Assembly (NCBI RefSeq): GCF_037095755.1
Contig: NZ_JBAWKJ010000001.1
Span: 1,677,001 to 1,741,000, forward strand
Length of the DNA: 64,000 nucleotides
Reading direction: 5' to 3'
Source of the DNA: Sphingopyxis sp. CCNWLW2
Lineage (GTDB): Bacteria > Pseudomonadota > Alphaproteobacteria > Sphingomonadales > Sphingomonadaceae
In this document: piece by piece, positions 3,421 to 8,317 of the stretch
Numbering within the stretch: position 1 is the first letter of the stretch
Layout of the letters: each line of letters starts with the position of its first letter
The notes under the pieces: generated by a model
What the model was told of the DNA's origin: nothing
Databases searched by the model: none
Seen by the model: only the letters and a program-made list of their open reading frames with translations
Translations under genes and position numbers: made by a program

Positions 3421-4452
3421 CTACTGATTCAGCCCGTGCTTTTTCAGCGCGTGGCGGATCTGGTCGTAGCTCAATCCCAGCGCCTCGGCCGCGACCTTCT
3501 GATTGAAGCGGCAGCGCGCCATCGTGTCGGACAAAATCTGCTTTTCATAAGCGTCGACCGCAGCGCGCAGGTCGCTGACCGGGCCGGAGGGCGGGGCGGC
3601 GGCGGTTTGCGCGGCGTCGTTCGCCGGTGCCGGGGCGGACGCCTCGGGCCGTGCGGGGACCTTGCGCGATACCGGCTGCCAGGGGCTCGCAAAAGGGTCG
3701 AAGCTCAGCGCGTCGACGGGCTTTTCGGCGTCGGCCCAGCGATAGATCGCGCGCTCGATCACGTTCCGGAGTTCGCGGACATTGCCCGGCCAGTCGTGCC
3801 CCTCCATCGCCGCGAGCGCGCGCGGGCCGAAACCCGGCCATTCGTCCCAGCCGAGCACCGCCGCCATGCGCTGTCCGAAATATTCGGCGAGCACCTCGAT
3901 ATCGCCTTCGCGCGCGCGCAGCGGGGGCAGGGTGATGACCTCGAACGACAGCCGGTCGAGCAGGTCGGCGCGGAAACGATTATCCTCGGCGAGCGCGGGC
4001 AGATGCTCGTTGGTCGCCGCGACGATGCGCACGTCGACGCGGATCGGGCGCGACGAGCCGACGCGCGTCACCTCGCCATATTCGACCGCACGCAGCAGGC
4101 GCTCCTGCGCCCCCATCGACATCGTCGCGAGTTCGTCGAGGAACAAGGTGCCGCCGTCGGCCTCCTCGAAGCGCCCCGCGCGGGTGCGCGTCGCGCCGGT
4201 AAAGGCGCCCGCCTCGTGCCCGAAGAGTTCGGACTCGATCAGCGTCTCTGGCATCGCGGCGCAGTTCATGATCACATAGGGGCGGTCCCAGCGCGTCGAC
4301 AGGCGGTGGAGGCGCTCGGCGATCAGTTCCTTGCCCGTGCCGCGCTCGCCGATCACCAGCACCGGGCGGTCGAGCGACGCCGCGAGACTCGCGCGTTCGA
4401 CCGCGTCCTGAAACGCCGCCGATTGGCCGATAAATTGGGTCTCGCGCTCCAT
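3421..4452 (-). CDS. pspF: Phage shock protein operon activator PspF (sigma-54 enhancer-binding)
   Basis: A 343-residue AAA+ activator. Visible features are Walker A GERGTGKE (about residues 35-42), the sigma-54-contacting GAFTGA loop (82-87), Walker B FLDE (104-107), the arginine-finger region 'FRADLLDRLS', and a C-terminal Fis-type helix-turn-helix (about 315-343). As in other PspF proteins there is no N-terminal receiver or sensor domain; known PspF is held inactive by PspA. ATG at 4452 is preferred (MERETQFIG); a TTG two codons upstream is possible. The gene is divergent from the psp operon, whose sigma-54 promoter it should activate by ATP hydrolysis. A Pro/Ala-rich linker of about 50 residues precedes the HTH. 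Confidence 0.93.
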   Translation of the reverse strand: MERETQFIGQSAAFQDAVERASLAASLDRPVLVIGERGTGKELIAERLHRLSTRWDRPYVIMNCAAMPETLIESELFGHEAGAFTGATRTRAGRFEEADGGTLFLDELATMSMGAQERLLRAVEYGEVTRVGSSRPIRVDVRIVAATNEHLPALAEDNRFRADLLDRLSFEVITLPPLRAREGDIEVLAEYFGQRMAAVLGWDEWPGFGPRALAAMEGHDWPGNVRELRNVIERAIYRWADAEKPVDALSFDPFASPWQPVSRKVPARPEASAPAPANDAAQTAAAPPSGPVSDLRAAVDAYEKQILSDTMARCRFNQKVAAEALGLSYDQIRHALKKHGLNQ

Positions 4453-4488: not shown

Positions 4489-4552
4489 GTCAAATCGATT
4501 GGGGGTGCGATTCCGGCGCGAATTTCGGCGGTTTTCCGTGCGTGCGCGCAAT

Positions 4553-4568
4553 TGGCACGCCCTATGCA
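4553..4568 (+). promoter_or_regulatory. Sigma-54 promoter of the psp operon
   Basis: TGGCACG-N4-ATGCA matches the -24/-12 sigma-54 consensus (TGGCACG-N4-TTGCA) at every position but one, with the invariant GG and GC at correct spacing. Transcription should start near 4580, about 50 nt before the small first gene at 4632. Confidence 0.88.
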
Positions 4569-4631
4569 TTGTTTCAGACGAACCGGCGCAAATCGCACCG
4601 GTGCAGCGAAAACTACAGGGAAGGTTGATCC

Positions 4632-4802
4632 ATGAAAACGATGTTTGCCCAGGCCGCCACTTTCGCGCTCAGCGCGGTCGGAGCGCTTGCCATCCTCGTC
4701 GGTGTGATCGACCAGCCCCAGGTCGCCGCCAGCGTCACCGGCACCCCTGCCGGCCCGCTGGTTGCCGCTGTCATGTCCCCGGCGGTCAGCGCTTTGGCCT
4801 GA
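4632..4802 (+). CDS. Small membrane peptide, first gene after the psp sigma-54 promoter
   Basis: A 56-residue frame beginning MKTMFAQAATFALSAVG. It has a single hydrophobic segment (about residues 8-26, ALSAVGALAILVGVI), then a short Pro/Ala/Val-rich tail. A purine-rich site (CAGGGAAGG) precedes the ATG. It lies immediately downstream of the sigma-54 promoter and ends just before a strong terminator-like hairpin, so it should be the most abundant product of the operon under stress. No family is recognised. It could be an inner-membrane peptide or a secreted peptide with a non-cleaved signal. Codon use (GCC, GTC, CTC) matches the neighbours, supporting a real gene. Confidence 0.6.
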   Translation: MKTMFAQAATFALSAVGALAILVGVIDQPQVAASVTGTPAGPLVAAVMSPAVSALA

Positions 4803-4913: not shown

Positions 4914-5579
4914 ATGGGTATTTTTTCACGAACCCGCGACATCATCGCCGCCAACGTCACCGACCTGCTCGACCGGGCCGAGGACCCCGAAAAGATGATC
5001 CGCCAGATCATCTTCGAGATGAACGAAACGCTCGTCGAAGTTCGCGCCTCCGCCGCCCGCACGATCGCGGACCAAAAGGAAATGCGCCGCCACATCGCCA
5101 AGCTCGAAAGCCTGCAGGACAGCTGGAAGGAAAAGGCCGAACTCGCGCTGTCGAAGGACCGCGAAGACCTCGCCACCGCCGCGCTCGTCGAAAAGCAGAA
5201 GGCCGGCGACATGGCCGAGAAGCTCAAGGCCGAGATCGCCGTCCTCGACGACGCGCTGACCGGTTACGAGGCCGACATCGCCAAGCTGCAGAAGAAGCTT
5301 TCGGAAGCCCGCGCGCGCCAGTCGAGCGTCGTCAACCGCCTCGAAAGCGCCGAGAATCGCTACAAGCTGCGCGAGATGACCAACGGCGACCGCGTCGAAG
5401 ACGCCTTCTCGCGCTTCGAGATCCTCGAACGCCGCGTCGACGAAGCCGAAGGCCGCGCCGATGCGCTGAGCCTCGGTTACAAGAAGTCGCTCGACGAAGA
5501 GATCGCCGAACTGCAGGCCGCCGATAAGGTTGCCGACGAACTCGCCGCGCTGAAAGCCGCGCAGGCCAGCAAGCAGTAA
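4914..5579 (+). CDS. pspA: Phage shock protein A
   Basis: A 221-residue protein of the PspA/IM30 (ESCRT-III-like) family. It starts MGIFSRTRDIIAANV, the N-terminal amphipathic membrane-binding helix, followed by 'LLDRAEDPEKMIRQII' and long heptad-rich helices to the end. Known PspA inhibits PspF by binding its AAA+ domain and forms oligomers that support a damaged inner membrane. ATG 4914 has a CAGGAG site 8 nt upstream; longer in-frame starts run back into the terminator and are rejected. Length matches E. coli PspA (222). pspB follows after 12 nt. Confidence 0.96.
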   Translation: MGIFSRTRDIIAANVTDLLDRAEDPEKMIRQIIFEMNETLVEVRASAARTIADQKEMRRHIAKLESLQDSWKEKAELALSKDREDLATAALVEKQKAGDMAEKLKAEIAVLDDALTGYEADIAKLQKKLSEARARQSSVVNRLESAENRYKLREMTNGDRVEDAFSRFEILERRVDEAEGRADALSLGYKKSLDEEIAELQAADKVADELAALKAAQASKQ

Positions 5580-5591
5580 GGAGCCGGACCG

Positions 5592-5870
5592 ATGGAAGAG
5601 ATTATCATCGTCCCGATCGTCATCGGAACCCTCTTCCTCGGTCTGCCTTGGCTGATCCTCCACTACATCACGAAGTGGAAGCAGGCCAAGACGCTGACCG
5701 GAGAAGACGAACAGCTGCTCGACGAACTCTACGACACGGCACGAAGGCTCGAAAACCGCCTGCACACCGTCGAACGCATCATCAGCGCCGACCATCCCGA
5801 CTTCCGCCCCGCGGTACGCAGCGATGAAGAGCTGGCGCAACTCGAAAACCATACGAACCGGAGGAACTGA
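5592..5870 (+). CDS. pspB: Phage shock protein B
   Basis: A 92-residue protein. One N-terminal membrane helix (about residues 4-25, IIIVPIVIGTLFLGLPWLIL) is followed by a short basic stretch (HYITKWKQAK) and a coiled coil (40-66, with LENRLHTVERII). This is the PspB layout. PspB and PspC form the membrane sensor that frees PspF from PspA. The coiled coil carries the motif RL-x(3)-VERI-x(2)-D, which recurs in the small proteins encoded downstream. pspC starts 1 nt after the stop, so translation is probably coupled. Confidence 0.92.
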   Translation: MEEIIIVPIVIGTLFLGLPWLILHYITKWKQAKTLTGEDEQLLDELYDTARRLENRLHTVERIISADHPDFRPAVRSDEELAQLENHTNRRN

Positions 5871-5871
5871 G

Positions 5872-6252
5872 ATGTCTGCCAGCCGCACAAAATTCTACCT
5901 CGACAAGCAGAACGCCAAATGGAGCGGCGTGTGCTCGGGAATCGCGGATTATAGCGGGATCGACGTCCTCTGGGTTCGTGTCGGCGCGGTCCTCCTGACC
6001 CTGATGGGCGGCTTCCCCTGGACGCTGATCGCTTACTGGATGGTCGCCTGGATGGGCACGCCGAAACCGTTCGCGCTCTATGGTTCGAGTGAGGAAGCGA
6101 AATTCTGGCAGGGTGTGCGTAGCAACCCGACCGCATCGACCCGCGACATCAAGTCGCGCTTTCGCGACATCGACCGCCGGCTTGCTGACATCGAACAATA
6201 TTACACCAGCCACAACCGCCGCCTCGCCGACGAGATCGACGCGCTGCGCTGA
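5872..6252 (+). CDS. pspC: Phage shock protein C (PspC domain)
   Basis: A 126-residue protein with a PspC domain: an N-terminal 'KFYLDKQNAKWSGVCSGIADY' region (residues 6-26) and hydrophobic helix (about 34-58, with a conserved WTLIAYWMVAWMG). The C-terminal third is a charged coiled coil, RDIDRRLADIE, ending ADEIDALR. That ending is the same pattern as the C termini of the five small downstream proteins. PspC acts with PspB as the inner-membrane sensor. ATG 5872 is used because it follows the pspB stop directly; a longer frame would overlap pspB. Confidence 0.93.
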   Translation: MSASRTKFYLDKQNAKWSGVCSGIADYSGIDVLWVRVGAVLLTLMGGFPWTLIAYWMVAWMGTPKPFALYGSSEEAKFWQGVRSNPTASTRDIKSRFRDIDRRLADIEQYYTSHNRRLADEIDALR

Positions 6253-6290
6253 GCGGGCCGGGCGGGTCCAAGGCAACAGGGAGATAAAGA

Positions 6291-6590
6291 ATGAATTTCG
6301 GTGGCACCACTTTTGTCCTCGCCATCATCGCATTGTCGATCGGCGGCTGGATGTTCACCACCTGGATCCGCGCCAAGCACGGCTATCCCGTTGAGAATGA
6401 ATGGGGCGGCACGGTTCATCGAACCGACCCCGACGCTGATCGAAAAATCGCCCTGCTGACCGATGACAACGCCAAGCTGGCGGGGCAGGTCAGCCGGCTG
6501 GAAGAGCGGATTTCGGTGCTCGAACGCATCGCGACCGAAAACAATGGTCAGGCGGCGGAACTCGCCAGCCAGATCGACCGCCTGCGCTGA
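6291..6590 (+). CDS. PspB-like small membrane coiled-coil protein 1
   Basis: A 99-residue protein: one membrane helix (about residues 5-25), then 'TWIRAKHGYPVEN', a variable linker, and a coiled coil with EERISVLERIATE and a terminal 'SQIDRLR'. It is clearly paralogous to the next gene (shared GGW-x-FTTW-x-R-x-K-x-GYP-x-EN) and more distantly to PspB and the C terminus of PspC. It starts 38 nt after pspC, with a GGGAG site. Its function is unknown; membership in the psp operon suggests an accessory sensor or a PspA-docking subunit. Confidence 0.8.
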   Translation: MNFGGTTFVLAIIALSIGGWMFTTWIRAKHGYPVENEWGGTVHRTDPDADRKIALLTDDNAKLAGQVSRLEERISVLERIATENNGQAAELASQIDRLR

Positions 6591-6604
6591 GAGGATAGAA
6601 GACA

Positions 6605-6922
6605 ATGAATCTGGACGTCCTGAACGCCATCGCCCCCGTCATCGCCACCATCGGTTTGGCCGGGGTCGGAGGATGGGTCTTCACCACTTGGCTCCGCGTC
6701 AAGAACGGCTATCCGCTCGAAAACAGCTGGGGCAAGGCGGTTTACCCCAAGACCAGCGACGAGGCGATGGAACGCGTCAAGCTGATCAGCCAGGAAAATG
6801 CCCAGCTGCGCGCCGAACTCGGTTCGGTGAAGGATCGCCTCGCGGTGATCGAGCGCATCGTCACCGACGAAAGCCACCGGCTGAGCCACGAGATCGAAGC
6901 GCTGCGGCGCCCCTCGAACTAA
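6605..6922 (+). CDS. PspB-like small membrane coiled-coil protein 2
   Basis: A 105-residue protein, the closest relative of the preceding gene product: an N-terminal membrane helix (about residues 9-28), then 'TWLRVKNGYPLEN', then the coiled coil 'KDRLAVIERIVTDES' and a closing 'SHEIEALRR'. The gap to the preceding gene is 14 nt with a GAGGATAG ribosome site. The duplication is recent enough that the juxtamembrane motif is nearly unchanged, while the linker differs (HRTDPDAD against YPKTSDEAM). No enzyme motif is present. Confidence 0.8.
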   Translation: MNLDVLNAIAPVIATIGLAGVGGWVFTTWLRVKNGYPLENSWGKAVYPKTSDEAMERVKLISQENAQLRAELGSVKDRLAVIERIVTDESHRLSHEIEALRRPSN

Positions 6923-6945
6923 GCGCCGGACTGAGAGGAACGAAC

Positions 6946-7209
6946 ATGGAAGTCATCTTCATTCTCGCCATCGTCGTGGGGCTGCCCGTCACGCTGGCCA
7001 TCGGCTACGCCGCTTATGAGCGGACCTTGAAATTCAAGGAAAAGCAGTTCCAGGCGATCACGCACGAGACCGCCGAAAAGGCCGCGCAATATGCGGCGCA
7101 AACCGAACGGCTGGAGGCGCGCGTCCGCGTTCTCGAGCGCATCGTTACCGACAAGGGAATTGATGTCGCCGACGAGATCGAAAAGCTGCGCGACGCCCCG
7201 CTGAACTAA
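6946..7209 (+). CDS. PspB-like small membrane coiled-coil protein 3
   Basis: An 87-residue protein: an N-terminal hydrophobic helix (about residues 3-21, IFILAIVVGLPVTLAIGYA), a Lys/Gln/Glu-rich helix, then 'ARVRVLERIVTDKG' and 'ADEIEKLRD'. The N terminus (EVIFILAIVVGLPVTLAI) resembles PspB (EEIIIVPIVIGTLFLGL) more than the other copies do. ATG 6946 is preceded by GAGAGGAACG; a longer frame overlapping the previous gene is rejected. It sits 23 nt after the preceding stop in the same operon. Confidence 0.8.
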   Translation: MEVIFILAIVVGLPVTLAIGYAAYERTLKFKEKQFQAITHETAEKAAQYAAQTERLEARVRVLERIVTDKGIDVADEIEKLRDAPLN

Positions 7210-7240
7210 AAAACAAAGACATACGGAAAGGAACCTCCCC

Positions 7241-7504
7241 ATGGGCCCGTTTGAAATGGTTGTTGGCATCGTCCTGATCGTGACCATCGGCAGCATAATC
7301 CGCGCCAAGCACGGCATCCGCCGCGATCACAAGGGCGGCGAATATTTCGTCGCCACCGACAATGGCGAGACCAAGGCGCTGCAAGCCGAAATCCGCGCGC
7401 TCAAGGAGCGGATCCAGGTGCTCGAACGCATCGCGACCGATCACAACCGCGCGGTCACGCTCGATCAGGAAATCGAGAAATTGCGCGACAACAGCAAAAT
7501 CTGA
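7241..7504 (+). CDS. PspB-like small membrane coiled-coil protein 4
   Basis: An 87-residue protein: a short membrane helix (about residues 5-20), then 'IRAKHGIRRDHKGG', then a coiled coil 'KERIQVLERIATDHN' and a terminal 'DQEIEKLRD'. The RAKHG juxtamembrane motif is shared with copy 1, and the coiled coil with copies 1-3. It starts 31 nt after copy 3 with a strong GGAAAGGA ribosome site. I infer the same envelope-stress role as its neighbours; nothing in the sequence identifies a ligand. Confidence 0.8.
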   Translation: MGPFEMVVGIVLIVTIGSIIRAKHGIRRDHKGGEYFVATDNGETKALQAEIRALKERIQVLERIATDHNRAVTLDQEIEKLRDNSKI

Positions 7505-7527
7505 ATGCCGGAAAAGGAGCAACGCTC

Positions 7528-7776
7528 ATGGCTTTCATCACCCCCGACCTCACCGCCGCGGCGATCGCTCTCACCGCGCTGAGCATCGTCAGCCTGGTCG
7601 CGCTGCGCGGCTGGCGTGACTGGATCCAGCTCAAGCGCGACGAACTCGCCGCGGGCCACCACGCGCCGCTCGCGCAGGATCCGGGCGTCCCGCACGCCGG
7701 GTCGCGGATCGAGATCGCCGACCTCAAGGAACGGCTGCGCAAGCTCGAAGCCATCGCGGCGGGGGTCGACCTCTAA
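7528..7776 (+). CDS. PspB-like small membrane coiled-coil protein 5 (divergent)
   Basis: An 82-residue protein, the most diverged of the five: a membrane helix (about residues 9-27), 'LRGWRDWIQLKRDEL', a Pro/His-containing linker, and a shortened coiled coil 'ADLKERLRKLEAIAAG' that stops where the other copies continue to the EI-x-x-LR ending. It follows copy 4 by 23 nt with an AAAAGGAG site and is the last gene of the psp operon. A large hairpin follows at 7799-7852. Confidence 0.75.
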   Translation: MAFITPDLTAAAIALTALSIVSLVALRGWRDWIQLKRDELAAGHHAPLAQDPGVPHAGSRIEIADLKERLRKLEAIAAGVDL

Positions 7777-7798
7777 TCACTCCGACCCGCGCGGCACC

Positions 7799-7852
7799 GG
7801 CCCGCTCCCCTGTCAGTCGCCATCCGTCCGGCGGCTGACAGGGGAGCGGGCC
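7799..7852 (+). repeat. 18-bp perfect inverted repeat after the psp operon
   Basis: GGCCCGCTCCCCTGTCAG (7799-7816) and its exact complement (7835-7852) enclose an 18-nt loop. No T-run follows, so it is not a classical intrinsic terminator, though it could stabilise the 3' end of the psp mRNA. It lies 55 bp upstream of sufE, so it could equally fold in the sufE leader. Confidence 0.6.
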
Positions 7853-7906
7853 GATGTCGTTTCAGGCCCCTTTCAACTTGGCGCCATCTATGCGAGTGGC
7901 GCGGCC

Positions 7907-8317
7907 ATGCGCAGCCTGACCGACATCTTCGACGAATATGACTTTCTCGACGGCGACGATCGCTATCGCCTGCTGATCGACCTCGGCCGGACGCTCGAGC
8001 CGATGCCCGACGCGCTCAAGACCGACGCGACGATGGTGCGCGGCTGTTCGGCCAGCGTCTGGGTCTATCCGGTGCCGCGCGAGGACGGCCAGCTCCATTT
8101 TCTCGCCGACAGCAACGCCGCGATCACCAAAGGGATCGTCGCGCTCGTGCTTTCGGCGGTGCAGGACAAGCCCGCGGCCGAAGTGGCCGAGATGGACGTC
8201 GCGGCGGCGCTCGCCCCCTTCGACCTCACGCGCCAGCTGTCGTCGAACCGGACGCAGGGCGTCCCCAACATGATCGCGCTGGTCCAGGAGACCGCGCGGC
8301 GGATCGCCGCGGGCTGA
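7907..8317 (+). CDS. sufE: Cysteine desulfuration protein SufE
   Basis: A 136-residue protein of the SufE family. Cys47 in MVRGCSASVW is the sulfur-accepting residue, and the 'TRQLSSNRTQGVPNMI' stretch near the C terminus is typical. SufE takes persulfide sulfur from a SufS-type desulfurase and passes it to the Fe-S scaffold. No suf genes are adjacent, so sufE is stand-alone here, as is common in alphaproteobacteria. ATG 7907 is chosen at the start of the conserved region (MRSLTDIFDEYDFL); a longer upstream frame runs into the hairpin and the psp operon. Confidence 0.93.
   Translation: MRSLTDIFDEYDFLDGDDRYRLLIDLGRTLEPMPDALKTDATMVRGCSASVWVYPVPREDGQLHFLADSNAAITKGIVALVLSAVQDKPAAEVAEMDVAAALAPFDLTRQLSSNRTQGVPNMIALVQETARRIAAG

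Follow-up and report, generated by a model that had tools for sequence, protein, structure and literature searches.

An array of small membrane proteins resembling PspB and the PspC tail in the psp operons of Sphingomonadaceae

Introduction

In the phage shock protein (Psp) systems that have been studied, PspB and PspC form a membrane complex, and on stress the tail of PspC binds PspA, whereupon PspF is freed. How PspB and PspC sense stress and relay it to PspA is, to our knowledge, unsettled. Here we analyse the psp locus in a 64,000-nucleotide (nt) stretch of DNA from Sphingopyxis sp. CCNWLW2 (hereafter the window, to which all coordinates refer), in which pspA, pspB and pspC are followed by five genes, c1 to c5, for small proteins that we call satellites. 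An earlier note, made from the letters of this DNA, had described them as PspB-like copies of one module shared with PspB and PspC, in an architecture not described for Psp systems, and had suggested that together they could dock PspA in graded fashion.

According to the accessible part of PMC5596341, PspB and PspC of Yersinia form a complex, and the C-terminal cytoplasmic domain of PspC binds PspA in the on state. For Escherichia coli, the accessible part of PMC3068692 reports that the C-terminal leucine-zipper region of PspC is required for PspA binding and psp induction. Psp domains have been surveyed by profile models (PMC9239133, accessible part), and a 2024 survey (PMC11237479) mentions, in its accessible text, PspB duplicates in the psp operon and a PspC fused to a divergent C-terminal PspB. 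Because PspB duplicates and a PspB-like end of PspC are already mentioned there, the array described below is a large, lineage-wide case of something known, and the earlier note was only partly right to regard the architecture as undescribed.

Results

The window encodes pspB (5592–5870, + strand; 97.9 bits with PF06667, 91.2 bits with TIGR02976, and found by the motif scan) and pspC (5872–6252, +; 118.7 bits with TIGR02978), followed on the same strand by c1 (6291–6590, 99 amino acids (aa)), c2 (6605–6922, 105 aa), c3 (6946–7209, 87 aa), c4 (7241–7504, 87 aa, of a type found outside the family too) and the divergent c5 (7528–7776, 82 aa, ending in DLKERLRKLEAIAAGVDL). The five genes for proteins of 82–105 residues that had been proposed downstream of pspABC are therefore present, at 6291–7776; the range 5592–7776 that had been given for them also spans pspB and pspC themselves. 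Each of c1–c5 has a Shine–Dalgarno-like sequence on its 5′ side. Hydropathy profiles bear out the proposed membrane helix, with a single strongly hydrophobic 19-residue stretch near the N terminus of each protein, so that all five share with PspB a small size and one predicted N-terminal membrane helix.

The pattern [RK][LIV]xV[LI]ERIxT[DE] matches the six-frame translation of the 64 kb exactly four times, once in each of c1–c4, and a relaxed form matches six times, in PspB (where RLHTVERI begins at 5757) and c1–c5 and nowhere else; neither form occurred in 30 mononucleotide shuffles of the window. This agrees with the earlier reading of an intact motif in copies 1–4 and a degenerate one in copy 5. 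PspC does end in ADEIDALR, as had been stated; its C-terminal tail carries the shared module as RRLADIEQYYTS...RLADEIDALR, and the satellite profile matches this tail at E 4.3e-4. The ends of c1–c4 follow L-x-x-[EQ]I-[ED]-x-LR and are thus PspC-like rather than PspB-like. The claim that all four end in the LR motif is exact for c1, which alone terminates in IDxLR, whereas in c2–c4 four to five residues lie after LR. Towards the membrane, c1 has a juxtamembrane GYPxE-x-x-WG motif, and in c2, 24 columns are invariant over 27 sequences, among them GYPL and WG, which follow the membrane helix.

An alignment of 28 c1–c4-type sequences that contained no PspB or PspC (A1; four from the window, 22 from nine loci of the family Sphingomonadaceae and two from loci in another family of its order) gave mean pairwise identities of 0.585 for the motif, 0.465 for the tail, 0.207 for the membrane helix and 0.164 for the region between. 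The predicted helical module is thus the conserved part of the satellites, and the membrane helix is variable. AlphaFold monomers were set aside as structural evidence: c2 was modelled as two helices (3–33 and 51–101; mean pLDDT 74.8, pTM 0.32) and c3 as one continuous helix (2–83; mean pLDDT 77.6, pTM 0.31), that is, only helices with pTM near 0.3. Searched against the PDB, the satellite profile drew helical chains alone, all of them unspecific and none with an E below 0.012. A PDB search with the PspB of the window returned no chain at E up to 1.

Single-sequence scans are suggestive at most. They placed c1, c3 and c4 below the PF06667 cut-off of 25.6 bits (12.8, 17.7 and 13.2 bits, with c2 and c5 not listed). 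Also below cut-off, TIGR02978 matched c3 at E 3.3e-5, through the PspC tail, and TIGR02976 (PspB) matched c4 at E 3.2e-4. A weak FtsL match for c4 reached 15.9 bits against a cut-off of 50. No match to c5 was found in the Pfam and NCBIfam scans, and none of c1–c5 matched PF04024, the PspC membrane domain. Two downstream copies in relatives do exceed the Pfam PspB cut-off (32.8 bits in G113 and 36.5 bits in G082).

To compare profiles rather than single sequences, we called genes in 60 psp loci, 40 from Sphingomonadaceae, mostly picked because PspB or c2 was already known there, and 20 from other families of the order. The gene caller, a home-made one based on codon scores and Shine–Dalgarno sequences, misses some genes. 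After pspC the 40 family loci held 204 small open reading frames (ORFs), 202 of which were assigned to five groups seeded by c1–c5. The group profiles were compared by local hhalign, with DivIC (24 sequences) and AtpF (13 of 30 fetched), drawn from 24 genomes, as controls. Against each other, the c1–c4 profiles scored 98–99.9% probability. Against PspB of other families they scored 85.9% (c1), 45% (c2), 95.7% (c3) and 91.9% (c4); against PspB of their own family, 32.7%, 68%, 81% and 26.5%, or 69%, 76%, 81% and 64% with that PspB as the query. The PspC tail gave 89.8%, 94.7%, 79% and 80% within the family, and 64–79% for other families, so that the best PspB or PspC-tail partner of each of c1–c4 reaches 90–96%. 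The DivIC control gave 34.8%, 7%, 20% and 31.5% for c1–c4 and the AtpF control at most 6%; c1 and c4 score higher with the PspC tail and with PspB from other families than with DivIC. When PspB or PspC columns were permuted within heptad positions, none of 50 shuffles reached the true score in any of the 16 comparisons of c1–c4 with PspB or the PspC tail.

The proposed profile–profile comparison thus finds c1–c4 related to PspB and to the PspC C terminus, and suggests that PspB, the PspC tail and c1–c4 are variants of one module. Compared directly, PspB and the PspC tail show almost no match (0.5–5.5% in four comparisons), so that it is the satellites that bridge the two. The idea that all seven proteins share one module stands for PspB, the PspC tail and c1–c4, through profiles, shuffles and the blind search described below, but not directly for c5, which matched c3 (94%) and c4 (85–90%) and neither PspB nor PspC. 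As judged from its profile, c5 is a distant member, placed via c3 and c4 only; c5 as a direct relative of PspB is not supported by the shuffles. The description of the copies as PspB-like likewise holds for the module, but they are not plain copies. In a tree of 48 columns, which is small and poorly resolved and has PspC as a long branch inside, c1–c4 satellites and solitary relatives from elsewhere group apart from PspB. Given this grouping and the PspC-like ends, a plain duplication of PspB was set aside, the poor resolution of the tree notwithstanding.

The array is family-wide in Sphingomonadaceae and tied to psp there. Profile A1 matched 233 of 249 family genomes at 0.001, 231 of them with a best E below 1e-10 and the other two at 3.9e-4 and 4.5e-7; these counts are not exact copy numbers, because the PspC tail can be included (as in G000). 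On its own, c2 matched 187 of the 249 at 1e-6. Among the 16 genomes without an A1 match, 13, some of them incomplete drafts, also lacked both a PspA and a PspB match, one (G221) has pspB at a contig end, one (G204) has pspABC-c5-sufE and one (G183) has pspABC-sufE. Low-copy members of the family carry c4 only (G151 and G161) or c4-c5 (G158 and G210).

The best 80 of 116 c2 relatives in genome contigs defined 80 loci, mostly from Sphingopyxis, with others from Sphingomonas, Novosphingobium, Sphingobium, Citromicrobium, Qipengyuania, Aurantiacibacter and further genera. In these 80 loci pspC was called in all 80, pspA in 79, pspB in 75 and sufE in 71; five satellites were found in 57 loci, six in 13, four in 6, seven in 2 and three in 2, and the order c1-c2-c3-c4-c5 was kept in 50. 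In the 40 family loci gene-called for the profiles, satellites lay within the psp locus in all 40 (pspC called in 39), with c1 present in 33, c2 in 35, c3 in 39, c4 in 37 and c5 in 37. The extra small membrane proteins in sampled sphingomonad psp operons thus usually number three to seven, and the genes fall, as judged from profile assignment, into five orthologous groups in near-constant order. A wider search with c2 found 7144 protein clusters at 0.001, in which other satellites may be included; none of the 120 clusters listed has a Pfam domain, and those with a name are, with one exception, 'hypothetical' or 'uncharacterized'. The c2 protein is 100% identical in two records, one of them from Sphingopyxis sp. 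Root154. A sphingomonad-type psp array also occurs in a record titled Arthrobacter sp. TPD3018 (L248), a genome that is probably mislabelled.

One genome, G077, lacks a PspB match; its psp locus (positions 1622–2410 of L314) has pspA, an 88-residue PspC that ends before the tail, c3 and c4, the last missed by the gene caller. The shared module survives in this locus on satellites only. Because this is a single genome, and the sole one of its genus sampled, it is a lead to replacement rather than proof.

The blind search with A1 reached psp loci outside the family as well. Of 385 alphaproteobacterial genomes, 17 matched at 0.001, five of them from Sphingomonadaceae. Among the 12 others, six matched in a psp locus, four at PspB itself and two, of one genus, at an extra operon gene that sits between a short and a full PspC; the order in L268 is pspA, pspB, short PspC, satellite, full PspC, and L273 is likewise a psp operon. 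Five of the 12 matches lay in longer frames or were unresolved, with no psp genes. In G537, the remaining genome, two clear satellites stand apart from psp, at a distance of about 81 kb from pspB. Close relatives of these two are Hyphomonas proteins, with at least one UniRef cluster named 'Phage shock protein B' and one (P0182) bearing PF06667. The Hyphomonas-type pair itself (L264/L281 and L341) consists of proteins of 76 and 64 residues; in G537 it lies far from psp, and the genes upstream of the pair presumably encode CoaBC-like and dUTPase-like proteins.

Across the phylum, 57 of 398 genomes matched A1; 28 of the 57 lie outside the class, 21 of these 28 with a best E below 1e-7. No psp gene was called within about 1.5 kb of the matches in six loci, namely three of these 28 (L338–L340) together with L336, L337 and L341; L339 and L341 have two adjacent copies each, and the genomes of L336 (G028) and L337 (G034) have pspB elsewhere on the same contig. 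Relatives of the L338 protein occur in Thalassotalea, Colwellia, Thalassomonas and Pseudoalteromonas, most of them unnamed or 'hypothetical', several named automatically 'Phage shock protein B' or 'C' and a few 'FtsL' or 'nitrite reductase'; FtsB and MotE are other automatic names among the solitary relatives. Nine solitary relatives stayed under the NCBIfam cut-off, the highest with 40.7 bits where 51.7 are required, and three solitary examples matched the c3 and c4 profiles at 50–69 bits. The neighbourhood survey thus confirms linkage to psp in Sphingomonadaceae (pspC in 80 of 80 c2 loci), but several relatives outside are unlinked. Neither a lack of relation to PspB nor separation from psp in most relatives, the two outcomes that the earlier note had named as counting against its idea, holds in Sphingomonadaceae, because c1–c4 are related to PspB and PspC and the genes are tied to psp there.

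Among the 20 loci taken from other families, pspB was called in 18. In one of these 18, pspC is followed by another pspB; in three, a gene for a PspC domain only occurs together with a c3/c4-like satellite. The latter three (L116, L118 and L119) belong to another family of the order; behind their pspABC come the PspC-domain-only gene, of 51–78 residues, and the satellite. The next gene encodes a protein of 180–183 residues, alike among the three.

The operon of the window runs orf56-pspA-pspB-pspC-c1-c2-c3-c4-c5, with pspF divergent on the − strand and, after c5, a long hairpin and then sufE. PspF, the sigma-54 activator of the psp operon (3421–4452, −), scores 475.3 bits with TIGR02974 (cut-off 443.55), and PspA (4914–5579, +) scores 270.8 bits with TIGR02977, over cut-off. 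Between them we read from the sequence a sigma-54-type −24/−12 promoter, TTGGCACGCCCTATGCAT (4552–4569, +). The strict form of this pattern is common in relatives: among the 74 of 80 c2 loci with pspF and pspA called in order, it occurs between the two genes in 66, against 1 of 1480 mononucleotide shuffles, and it occurs in none of the 74 operon bodies (about 2.9 kb each). A looser pattern is found in 75 of 79 loci but is often expected by chance. Median gaps between called neighbours from pspA to c5 range from −1 to 38 bp (pairs with a missed pspB left out), and some loci have stop–start overlaps between operon neighbours. Across 44–47 Sphingopyxis-type loci per gene, in pairs with dS of 0.2–1.5, median dN/dS was 0.06–0.08 for pspA, pspB and pspC, 0.11 for sufE and 0.17–0.34 for c1–c5; the satellites are under purifying selection, weaker than that on the psp core.

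Downstream, the median gap from c5 to sufE is 138 bp in 66 loci. In the window, this interval holds the hairpin (7791–7860, +), which has an uninterrupted stem of 24 pairs (one of them G-U), an 8-nt loop and flanking pairs, with no T run; its minimum free energy is −83.7 kcal/mol (z −7.58), reached by none of 200 shuffles. It is possibly a terminator, and hence a transcript end, or another element. The conserved neighbour sufE (7907–8317, +; 112.5 bits with PF02657) is probably a separate unit. Between the sigma-54 site and pspA lies orf56 (4632–4802, +), a small ORF of 56 residues that is one-helix or signal-peptide-like. Shortly upstream of pspA, 79 loci together yielded 55 ORFs of 45–75 aa, some loci perhaps more than one. 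Since other family members have small ORFs of like size and pattern in this position, an unnamed small protein may be the first product of the operon.

Discussion

We propose, with a probability of roughly 0.55, that c1–c5 are extra subunits of the inner-membrane Psp complex that co-assemble with PspB and PspC and enlarge or tune the membrane dock. The proposal builds on gene content, the relation of the c1–c4 module, linkage to psp, the operon arrangement and purifying selection; topology, co-assembly, binding to PspA or PspC and tuning are what it would predict. Each satellite would be anchored by one N-terminal helix, with a helix of the PspB/PspC-tail type in the cytoplasm, and would be produced together with PspA, PspB and PspC, all encoded in a single PspF/sigma-54 operon. 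The satellites would then co-assemble with PspB and PspC and add non-identical modules able to pair with each other, with the PspC tail or with PspA, and the membrane dock would be enlarged or tuned as a result. Since the satellites carry a PspC-tail-type module on separate membrane anchors, we infer both the co-assembly with PspB–PspC and the extra docking; because c1–c4 end like PspC, PspA is a candidate partner. Taken together, the locus suggests a larger, modular sensing or docking complex.

Several observations weigh against this proposal. All of c1–c5 lie under the curated PspB and PspC cut-offs; below threshold, Pfam matches c1, c2 and c4 best to helical families other than PspB; and c1 and c4 match the PspB of their own family no better than they match DivIC. 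The comparison of c5 with PspB and PspC is indistinguishable from that with shuffled columns (4–15 of 50 reach the score; 12 and 6 of 50 for PspB). The shared stretch, of about 22–45 residues, is helical, the type most prone to false homology, and two solitary relatives score higher with DivIC than with PspB in Pfam, both below cut-off. Some relatives are unlinked to psp, namely those in Hyphomonas, in Gammaproteobacteria and in two genomes of the order to which the family belongs, and one family member (G183) has pspABC-sufE with no satellite. In E. coli, according to the accessible part of PMC3068692, the zipper region of PspC was placed in a putative periplasmic domain, for which two topologies were considered possible; contact between PspB and PspA was not detected by two-hybrid assay; and the PspB–PspC contact maps to the membrane region, with neither zipper needed. 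Given these two-hybrid results, binding to PspA is not a known property of a PspB-type module.

A bolder extension is tentative. The satellites might constitute the third lineage in which the PspB/PspC-tail module exists: one-helix subunits that are exchangeable, assemble as hetero-oligomers and can replace PspB and the PspC tail, for which G077 provides the lead. If so, the membrane sensor of Sphingomonadaceae would be combinatorial, with as many as about seven different membrane helices feeding one PspA docking surface, and solitary members would be wired to other inputs in Gammaproteobacteria.

The sign of any effect, be it activation, silencing or direct protection, lies beyond sequence, and the rival statements overlap with the co-assembly that we propose. 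The satellites could act as silencers, which like PspB bind the PspC tail and keep the system off, more copies raising the induction threshold. It is c3 and c4 that resemble PspB best, at 95.7% and 91.9% with other families' PspB; the title of a 2016 paper in the reference list of PMC5596341 states that PspB–PspC cytoplasmic domain interactions silence the response; and G077 keeps satellites while PspB is gone. But c2, and slightly c1, are closer to the PspC tail than to PspB, and the ends of c1–c4 are not those of PspB; we consider silencing unlikely. An effector role, in which PspF-induced membrane proteins shield the inner membrane directly with different copies for different kinds of damage, likewise has a low probability. 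The satellites stand at the end of a PspF-type operon, and this position, with the strict sigma-54 site absent from the 74 operon bodies, means that they should accumulate on induction. PspB and PspC are sufficient against secretin toxicity and, in Yersinia, protect against mislocalised secretins (PMC5596341, accessible part), and the variable part of the satellites is the membrane helix. Their conserved part, however, is the helical module common with the PspC tail and not the membrane helix.

It is rather improbable that the satellites belong to a general-purpose family of small membrane coiled coils that became lodged in the psp operon and acts elsewhere. The Hyphomonas-type pair about 81 kb from pspB, and L336–L340 with no psp genes nearby, including the L338 kin in Thalassotalea, Colwellia and Pseudoalteromonas, would fit such a family. 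Against it stand the near-complete linkage and the shared absence with psp in Sphingomonadaceae, the extra copies inside psp operons of two further lineages (L268/L273 and L116/L118/L119) and the several solitary proteins to which UniRef or JGI give the name 'Phage shock protein B' or 'C'; FtsB, FtsL, MotE or nitrite reductase are, however, the names of others. Finally, chance or coiled-coil convergence among small ORFs of similar composition, with no homology to PspB or PspC, would account for the short helical segment, the missed curated cut-offs and the DivIC-like scores of c1 and c4 against the family's PspB (a reservation that we keep for these two), but is set aside as very improbable given the heptad-preserving shuffles (0 of 50 in 16 comparisons), the scores of other families' PspB and of the PspC tail above the DivIC and AtpF controls, the recovery of psp loci by the blind search and the purifying selection.

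The array offers a ready set of natural variants of one module, in which docking-type residues are conserved and the membrane helices differ, for telling sensing and docking apart. In a family of environmental importance, a sizeable portion of the stress response that lacked annotation can now be given a name.

Among known systems, FtsL/FtsB (DivIC) proteins are alike in size and architecture, and a few relatives are automatically so named, but the profile control reaches at most 35% with c1–c4. The solitary proteins of Hyphomonas, Thalassotalea and Pseudoalteromonas share one membrane helix and a KERVRVLEKIVTD-type module, but where their surroundings were examined they are not beside psp genes. 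The tail of PspC (TIGR02978, last 40–60 positions) has the same R-h-x-x-h-E-x3-[TS]-...-L-x-x-EI-x-x-LR ending, which c2 and c1 match best; unlike PspC, the satellites have no PF04024 match and carry the module alone on one membrane helix. PspB (PF06667/TIGR02976) is likewise small, with one N-terminal membrane helix, an LExR-x2-x-hERI-type helix and a place in the psp operon, and c3 and c4 are closest to it; its P-D-[WF]-R-like ending is replaced in c1–c4 by a PspC-like tail and lost in c5.

An extra PspB has an example in AOL22920.1, which we take to be from Erythrobacter litoralis. The main text of PMC11237479, in its accessible part, gives this protein among extra PspB genes in pspABC operons and describes module sharing between PspB and PspC, in outline what we find here, but has no array of three to seven genes, no orthologous groups and no sphingomonad. 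The string 'sphingo' is absent from the accessible main texts of both this survey and PMC9239133; a literature search joining psp terms with sphingomonad names returned, by title and abstract, no work on such an array, and the accessible part of PMC5443232 has a prophage table with a PspC column and nothing on the array. As far as these searches go, what appears to be new is how large and regular the array is, that nearly all sampled members of the family have it and that it comprises five orthologous groups; the PspC-like ends, the relatives that stand alone and the case lacking PspB appear to be new as well.

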